NCBI GenBank assembly: GCA_018433585.1
Contig: JAHDQW010000001.1
Location: 372,001-436,000 of the forward strand
Direction of reading: 5' to 3'
Origin: Candidatus Praeruminimicrobium purgamenti
Lineage (GTDB): Bacteria; Elusimicrobiota; Endomicrobiia; Endomicrobiales; Endomicrobiaceae
DNA length: 64,000 bases
A program made the position numbers and the translations under genes. This document shows positions 8,063 to 24,717 of this stretch, in pieces. The notes under the pieces were generated by a model. That model was not told where the DNA came from, searched no databases, and worked only from the letters and a program-made list of their open reading frames with translations. Numbering within the stretch: the first letter of the stretch is position 1; every line of letters starts with the position of its first letter.

Positions 8063-8133
8063 GCGGGCATAGTCTAGTGGTAAAACCCCAGCTTCCCAAG
8101 CTGGAGATGTGGGTTCGATTCCCATTGCCCGCT
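8063..8133 (+). tRNA. tRNA-Gly(CCC)
   Basis: A complete 71-base cloverleaf. The acceptor GCGGGCA pairs with TGCCCGC, the anticodon stem CCAGC pairs with GCTGG around the loop TTCCCAA (anticodon CCC), and the T-arm contains GGGTTCGATTCCC. The discriminator is T and no CCA is encoded. It directly follows the CCA-adding enzyme gene. Confidence 0.95.
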
Positions 8134-8181: not shown

Positions 8182-8553
8182 TTATTTTTTCAATTTTGAT
8201 TTCAAGTTCAGATTTTCTTTTTTAAGGAGAGCATTTTCTTTTTTTAGGAGATCGGCTTCTTTCCTTAACAGATCTATTTCTTTTGACAGCAAATTAGCTT
8301 CGCTAACTTGGTAAGAGTCCTGGTTTTTATATTCGTAAGGGGTATCTTCGGCATTAATAAAAAATGAAACAGGCAAATTTAAAATTTTTGCAATCTTTTC
8401 AAGATTTTCCAATTTAACTTTATATTTTCCCGAGAGCATTCTGCTCAAAGAAGACGGTTTTATTTTAATTTGTTCGGCAAGGCTTTTTTGCGAAATATGT
8501 CTCTTTCTTAATACTTCCAAAATTTTTAAATAAGTTTTTATATTGTCGTTCAT
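8182..8553 (-). CDS. XRE-family transcriptional regulator with leucine-zipper tail
   Basis: This 123-residue protein has a Cro/C1-type helix-turn-helix at about residues 8-62 (SQKSLAEQIKIKPSSLSRML core). It is followed by a linker (residues 63-85) and a striking C-terminal heptad coiled coil of leucine, lysine and glutamate (residues 86-123), which should dimerise it. No peptidase or ligand domain is attached. AGGA precedes the ATG. It is divergent from two tiny ORFs, and a long palindrome covers the -10 box of their promoter, so it probably represses that promoter. Its biological role is unknown. Confidence 0.85.
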   Translation of the reverse strand: MNDNIKTYLKILEVLRKRHISQKSLAEQIKIKPSSLSRMLSGKYKVKLENLEKIAKILNLPVSFFINAEDTPYEYKNQDSYQVSEANLLSKEIDLLRKEADLLKKENALLKKENLNLKSKLKK

Positions 8554-8578
8554 AAAAATCCTGTAAAATAAAAAACAC

Positions 8579-8607
8579 TTGACAAAACAGCAACTCTATG
8601 TTATTTT
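8579..8607 (+). promoter_or_regulatory. sigma-70-like promoter of the micro-ORF locus
   Basis: TTGACA at 8579-8584, a 17-base spacer and TATTTT at 8602-8607. It faces away from the XRE gene toward the GTG-initiated micro-ORF at 8676. The -10 hexamer lies inside the palindrome at 8596-8630. Confidence 0.6.
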
Positions 8608-8630
8608 ATTATCATAAAATCAACATATAG
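8596..8630. promoter_or_regulatory. long palindromic operator candidate over the -10 box
   Basis: ATTTTAT (8603-8609) and ATAAAAT (8614-8620) form a perfect inverted repeat around TATC. It is extended by CTATGTT on the left and AACATATAG on the right with small bulges. The position over the -10 hexamer is that of a repressor site; the adjacent XRE protein is the obvious ligand by inference. Confidence 0.5.
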
Positions 8631-8675
8631 GGCAAAAAGTTAATAAACAATGTTTTAATGAACAAGGAGATAAGA

Positions 8676-8822
8676 GTGTCAAACTCAAATAATTTTAATA
8701 TCTCAGACAATCACAAAATATATGCAAAAAAGCTAGGCGGTTTGTTTTTTATAAACAAACTGAAAAAAGCATTAAAACATTTTGCGGTGTCTTTAATGTC
8801 CTGGCTTTATTTTATCAATTAG
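8676..8822 (+). CDS. 48-residue micro-ORF, function unknown
   Basis: A GTG start at 8676 has AAGGAG (8664-8669) at ideal spacing, and the frame runs 49 codons to TAG. The N-terminal third is polar and asparagine-rich. The rest (from about residue 18) is a basic, hydrophobic amphipathic segment ending SLMSWLYFIN. An in-frame ATG at 8658 would give six more residues but has no ribosome site. It sits about 60 bases downstream of the strong promoter and operator. The composition would suit a membrane-active peptide or a small regulator, but I recognise no family. Confidence 0.45.
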   Translation: MSNSNNFNISDNHKIYAKKLGGLFFINKLKKALKHFAVSLMSWLYFIN

Positions 8823-8863
8823 TTGTATAAAATATCAATAGCAAACAGAACGGAAGACACGAA

Positions 8864-9052
8864 ATGCAGAGTAAACGGCATAATGAGTTTTTGAAACTGA
8901 TAAAAAGACTTGAAATTAAAAATCAAATAAAAGAAGTAAGATATTATAAAATAATGGTTCTCAAATATTCATATATTTTTAAAGAAAATTTAATATCGGC
9001 ATATAAAGAACTGCATAAACTTCTTGCAAACAGACATAAAAATAACCAATAA
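8864..9052 (+). CDS. 62-residue basic small protein, function unknown
   Basis: An ATG-started frame of 62 codons lies 41 bases after the previous micro-ORF on the same strand. The product is rich in lysine, arginine and asparagine, without cysteine or a signal peptide, and is predicted mostly helical. GGAAGA upstream of the ATG is a weak ribosome site. It could be the second gene of the operon controlled by the XRE regulator. It may also be a chance ORF, since only its context and basic composition support it. Confidence 0.35.
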   Translation: MQSKRHNEFLKLIKRLEIKNQIKEVRYYKIMVLKYSYIFKENLISAYKELHKLLANRHKNNQ

Positions 9053-24487: not shown

Positions 24488-24568
24488 TGCCTTTGCTTTT
24501 AAAATCTCAGCGTAGAAATATCCGAAGCTTTCTTTTTTTTATAAAATAATGTAGAATATCTCAAAAGT

Positions 24569-24694
24569 CTTCGGGGAAGGTGAAAATCCTTGCCGGTAGT
24601 GAGCTGTAAGTTAAGCGAGCCTACGAGTCTGCTTTAAAAGCGGATTGAATCTGTGAAAATCAGATGCCGACGGTAAAGTCCGGATGAAAGAAGA
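24569..24694 (+). ncRNA. FMN riboswitch (RFN element)
   Basis: The conserved RFN core is present: CTTCGGGGAAGGTGAAAATC at the 5' side, CCGGTAGTGAGC in the middle, then GTGAAAATCAGATGCCGACG and GGTAAAGTCCGGATGAAAGA at the 3' side. It binds flavin mononucleotide and represses riboflavin genes when FMN is plentiful. A terminator follows directly and the riboflavin operon begins at 24754. Confidence 0.96.
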
Positions 24695-24717
24695 TATTAT
24701 ATTTGTTTTATATTTCC

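Follow-up and report, generated by a model that had tools for sequence, protein, structure and literature searches.

An undescribed three-way-junction leader RNA paired with XRE repressor genes in a probably phage-derived unit of rumen Endomicrobia

Among the closest described counterparts of the locus reported here is the put RNA of phage HK022, an architecture of two stem-loops, in which putL lies just downstream of the PL promoter and contains a -10-like pause sequence proposed to hold the polymerase while putL folds (PMC9378689). We analyzed a window, that is, the whole stretch of 64,000 nucleotides under study (G000:C8:372001-436000), from a 1.86-Mb genome assembly (G000) whose family relatives include rumen Endomicrobia, and compared it with G001, the only same-genus relative available for comparison. 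Judged by its sequence, the locus belongs to a familiar class of transcription units, gated by a repressor and provided with a structured leader RNA, and what is new is the RNA family. Taken as a whole, the evidence inclines us, by a modest degree, to read it as an XRE-gated transcription unit with a new structured leader RNA that acts in cis and with a head derived from a phage.

The module adjoins a tRNA-Gly (CCC) gene (8063-8133, plus strand), which was detected by ARAGORN and Rfam and is 100% identical in G001; tRNA genes are a common kind of phage attachment site. On the minus strand, at 8182-8553, lies the gene for a Cro/CI-type XRE repressor of 123 residues, which belongs to the Pfam family HTH_3 (E=3e-12, 46.8 bits against a curated cut-off of 23), matches PHROG transcriptional repressor families and ends in the Leu/Lys/Glu-rich heptads of a C-terminal coiled coil. 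Its orthologue in G001 shares 66% amino acid identity (dN 0.25, dS 1.95) and, by this comparison, the gene is under purifying selection. Divergent from it is a sigma-70-type promoter for the RNA/ORF2 transcript (8579-8607, plus strand), with the -35 TTGACA at 8579-8584, a spacer of 17 nt and the -10 TATTTT at 8602-8607, and in almost every related cassette a TTGAC(A/T)-N17-TATAAT-like promoter is found between the XRE gene and the RNA. The -10 is covered by an inverted repeat (8594-8607/8617-8630) whose 14-nt arms are 79% complementary and 9 nt apart. An earlier note on this DNA had proposed both the coiled-coil regulator gene and the divergent promoter with its -10 in a palindrome, and all of these elements can be read in the sequence, the palindrome being imperfect. 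In G001 a different but perfect 15+15 palindrome occupies the same position with the same promoter spacing. A simple scan over all cassettes gave a mean palindrome score of 9.3 versus 7.4 for shuffled sequences, with a clear palindrome in 22 of 75, so that the feature is not universal. The palindrome at 8594-8630 is probably the XRE operator and, because of this layout and the palindromes, XRE would be expected to control initiation. The whole order of tRNA-nucleotidyltransferase-like gene, tRNA-Gly, XRE gene, leader, ORF2 and TPR gene is kept in G001; an empty-site comparison from tRNA-Gly to the TPR gene in other genera found that the synteny is not preserved there.

Two short reading frames follow the promoter, as had been claimed: ORF1 (8676-8822, plus strand), which has 48 residues from the GTG at 8676 or 54 if read from the ATG at 8658, and ORF2 (8864-9052, plus strand), with 62 residues, basic and helical. 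Their conservation and selection, examined in G001, gave opposite answers. ORF2 retains 77% amino acid identity (dN 0.17, dS 1.19, dN/dS about 0.14), with substitutions distributed 12/8/21 over the codon positions and thus mostly at third positions, and on these figures is a genuine small protein gene under purifying selection. It has no significant match in Pfam and none in PHROGs, which upholds for this product the claim that it belongs to no known family, and no relatives were found in viral contigs; its predicted structure, one long helix with a pTM of 0.41, is uninformative. Relatives of this conserved protein occur in G017, next to an XRE gene, and in G007, within the early operon of a prophage. 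The G017 relative (L048:1471-2477) is divergent from another XRE gene, and the leader between them was rejected as a member of the RNA family described below, since it folds as a long hairpin and does not match the RNA model.

ORF1, in contrast, is not a conserved protein. It starts behind a Shine-Dalgarno-like AAGGAG (8663-8678 including the GTG, plus strand), stops at 8820-8822 and has no Pfam match, and its frame is disrupted in G001 by an indel and a stop, which led us to discard the peptide. The membrane-active product suggested for it earlier gives way to nucleotides that are kept, with compensatory changes, as RNA, and this RNA is found about 100 times in the absence of ORF1. At most, ORF1 would be a short ORF of the leader that extends into the RNA. 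A -1 shift at A_AAA_AAG (around 8725-8732), at the border of ORF1 and the RNA, would in the window fuse ORF1 with an open frame that is similar to part of an ORF of G007. A programmed frameshift at this site was rejected as well, as the two frames stand in another relation in G001 and none of the pilin copies read contains such an ORF. A toxin-antitoxin or signalling-peptide pair made of ORF1 and ORF2 would agree with the good ribosome site of ORF1 and with the Shine-Dalgarno sequence and start that also precede the RNA in G001 and G007, and are found in none of the pilin-cassette leaders read. We regard such a pair as most unlikely, given the broken frame, DNA that is conserved at all codon positions and in base pairing rather than codon by codon, and two ORFs without a family match that the pilin cassettes read do without. 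Furthermore, no recognizable toxin, as expected of a type II module, was found beside the XRE gene when ORF1 and ORF2 were compared with Pfam and with PHROGs. Among the module types previously considered, a self-contained, XRE-regulated small locus of probable phage-remnant type is the one that agrees with the data, and the toxin-antitoxin and peptide-signalling types are left without positive evidence.

Because the ORF1 frame breaks while the stretch 8731-8841 stays 89% identical to G001, the conserved object is a nucleic acid and not a peptide. This identity, which rises to 91% in the core, compares with 64% for the promoter and leader (8554-8722), 70% for the XRE gene, 78% for ORF2 and 76-77% for the flanking genes (77% for the TPR gene); about 2% of the 110-nt segments in a 7.5-kb region match it, the two best lying at the two tRNA genes. 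The block folds on the plus strand as a three-way junction (core, 8731-8806) made of P1 (8732-8737/8800-8805), P2 (8738-8744/8756-8762) and P3 (8769-8775/8793-8799, with an inner helix at 8777-8781/8786-8790). It is followed by a conserved, A/T-rich 3' tail (8807-8841), in which a local hairpin is possible. The tail consists of a -10-like hexamer immediately 3' of P1, TATTTT in the window and NANTNT elsewhere (TATTAT, GATTAT, CAGTAT), with A2 and T6 present in at least 72 of 78 copies, and then (A)NCAA, or A(N)CAAA across the copies.

The fold is supported by covariation. The copy in G007 (genus g7, L107) carries compensatory changes from A-U to C-G in P1 and from U-A to C-G in P3, and in G003 (genus g3), where an XRE gene also lies beside the RNA, the letters of P1 are largely exchanged (GTGCAG/CTGCAC). 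A covariance model, R1, led to copies in three genus-g10 genomes, and a second model, R2, was built from 20 sequences. In this R2 alignment, double-sided changes were found in 15 of 26 pairs, none of 500 shuffles attained this level of covariation score, and slid controls scored at most 0.077 versus 0.405; with 81 sequences the double-sided changes extended to 23 of 26 pairs, in model-fitted alignments that are biased towards their own structure and among copies that are not independent because most come from three genus-g10 MAGs. When the sequences were aligned with MAFFT, independently of the structure, the same helices still covaried at 12 of 19 pairs (0 of 500 shuffles), and RNAalifold on this alignment alone recovered P1 only. 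The element thus joins a covarying P1-P2-P3 junction to a NANTNT-type tail. Rfam release 15 gave no match over it in the window at the gathering score and none that was convincing at a relaxed threshold over ten related loci, apart from one chance miRNA match elsewhere, and searches of the open-access literature turned up no account of an RNA of this type from these bacteria. We are highly confident that the RNA is real and that it is linked to XRE. The same window contains an ordinary FMN riboswitch (RF00050, 99.9 bits) at 24563-24699.

The covariance model found about 100 copies in 7 of the 341 genomes of the phylum, and R2 matches at E<=0.01 placed these 7 genomes in 4 genera of one family, all rumen/gut Endomicrobia. 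A deeper scan counted 57 copies in G100, 20 in G031 and 20 in G096, with one clear copy each in G000, G001, G003 and G007. In addition, an exact-pattern scan of 84,980 species (one genome each) returned 17 stretches, all from rumen/ruminant Endomicrobia, the named holders being uncultured Endomicrobia (red deer, rumen) and Candidatus Ruminimicrobiellum caprinum. Exact-pattern matches in viral contigs, which lacked the module context, were set aside as chance, and weak matches at G000:C13:194246 (L324), L328 and L186 minus strand, with no XRE or pilin context, as false.

Upstream flanks of at least 450 nt were available for 76 RNAs, 68 of which have a divergent XRE gene, in most cases at a distance of about 100 nt. 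Of the 64 RNAs with sufficient downstream sequence, 55 are followed by a type IV pilin-like gene. Genomes of genus g10 hold 70, 68 and 95 pilin-like matches with the N-terminal methylation motif PF07963. In this genus (G031, G100, G096; for example L114, L042, L131) the pilin-like genes are dispersed, many with a private XRE gene and RNA, and in G096 some stand in tandem arrays. In pilin leaders without the three-way junction (L190, L192, L203, L227, L236), hairpins that resemble terminators and have T-runs lie about 65-107 nt upstream of the start codon; they hint at a second, attenuator-like leader class. The copy in G003 (L325, G003:C19) has its XRE gene and no clear gene downstream; beyond that XRE gene, a DUF5618-like ORF and a RelE/HigB-like toxin ORF were noted by eye. 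Comparison shows that the XRE gene and the RNA travel together, with the promoter as the third constant element, and that the gene that follows varies.

This distribution bears on what the RNA does. It could be a ligand-sensing riboswitch, or an attenuator or translational leader, in which the junction would bind a small molecule or a protein and switch the downstream gene. The strict 5' leader position would suit this, as would the end of P1 about 35-48 nt upstream of the pilin start in G031 and G096, the CATAGC motif, which 74 of the 81 copies carry and which lies in the P2 loop of aligned examples, and the hairpins in several RNA-less pilin leaders. We nevertheless hold it to be rather doubtful, as the distance to the start codon ranges from about 35 to >300 nt, being most variable in G100, no alternative pairing came to light, the loop motif does not occur in G000 (the window copy), G001, G007 and G003, and no Rfam riboswitch is similar. 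Less probable still is a trans-acting small RNA, or one that titrates XRE or another protein, with the downstream gene incidental. The constancy of the XRE-RNA pair while the following gene differs (ORF2, a phage operon, a pilin), and the G003 copy with no clear gene after it, would speak for this; a same-strand pilin next to 55 of 64 copies speaks against it, as do the many near-identical P1 elements per genome, which would cross-talk, and a search that identified no processing site or terminator directly after the RNA. Lastly, many dispersed hairpin-rich copies, with a tRNA gene adjacent here and a prophage in G007, could be seen as a DNA element, a cruciform site for recombination or mobilization of dispersed pilin/phage cassettes. 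This is highly improbable for an element that always has the same strand relative to promoter, XRE gene and downstream gene, keeps frequent G-U pairs in its helices and always has a promoter directly upstream.

The G007 copy sits in the leader of the first (early) operon of an intact-looking prophage, which comprises an integrase, the XRE repressor, the RNA, the ORF2 relative, a CII-like gene (Phage_CP76), a DnaQ-like exonuclease and YqaJ, together with terminase-like and portal-like ORFs assigned by reading. In this prophage (L107:14690-15200), GGACACCGCTATG-type Shine-Dalgarno/start sequences are repeated before early genes, and GACACCGC is complementary to GCGGTGTC of P3. At the window locus the genes beside tRNA-Gly are XRE and ORF2 only. 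Because the window copy lies beside tRNA-Gly and ORF2 is found elsewhere in a phage early operon, we read it as a domesticated phage control head; from its sequence it looks like the immunity/early-promoter head of a prophage that has been retained and kept by selection in two species. The conserved unit of repressor and leader RNA is probably phage-derived.

For a cis-acting leader RNA of this kind, we propose that XRE would bind the palindrome and block initiation and that, once XRE is released, the nascent RNA would fold and act on its own transcript. Its effect would most likely be on elongation or on the fate of the mRNA, antitermination or anti-pausing as in HK022 put being the model we favor. 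The -10-like tail could then provide a sigma-dependent pause, and the outcome would be full expression of the downstream gene, namely ORF2 in the window, the early phage operon in G007 and pilins in genus g10. An effect on elongation in cis is favored because the RNA comes just after a repressor-controlled early promoter, its distance to the gene is not fixed, and behind it stands a -10-like sequence of the type proposed to make the polymerase pause while putL folds. The put-like antitermination step itself is favored tentatively, on grounds of position and analogy. No terminator has been shown between the RNA and the gene, and the RNA mostly precedes lone, short pilin genes, for which little antitermination would be needed; both points count against it. 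An attenuator is equally thinkable because RNA-less pilin genes sometimes have terminator-like leader hairpins.

Prophage early control and pilin repertoires of 68-95 genes per genome have in common this strongly covarying RNA family, which is associated with a repressor gene almost one to one. A possible, if speculative, extension is that a phage-type head, consisting of XRE and a cis-acting RNA able to reprogram RNA polymerase, has multiplied about a hundred-fold, giving each pilin a private repressor/operator lock and all of them a common RNA gate. If true, one or few among scores of pilins would be expressed at a time in rumen Endomicrobia. The RNA family opens to experiment the question of how a bacterium could select from scores of pilins, as well as the possible domestication of phage-type elongation-control RNAs outside proteobacterial phages.

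With respect to known systems, the locus resembles HK022 put in having a folded RNA directly after a repressor-controlled early phage promoter, with a -10-like hexamer following P1. It departs from put (about 70 nt, two stem-loops) in architecture, being a three-way junction of about 80-140 nt, and in mostly preceding single pilin genes. Phage CI/Cro immunity regions share with it the XRE repressor, the palindromic putative operator over a divergent sigma-70 promoter and, in the prophage copy, the integrase and CII; unlike them, the window copy has just a single early gene besides the repressor and the RNA, the structured RNA comes as an additional conserved part, and the output in genus g10 is pilin genes. 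Like the structured 5' leaders and riboswitches of Rfam, it is a covarying conserved RNA in a 5' leader, whereas it matches no family there and nearly each copy has an XRE gene of its own. The pilin-like genes carry the methylation motif in tens of copies per genome, as multi-copy type IV pilin-like genes do, and, unlike ordinary ones, many of them have their own repressor and leader RNA.
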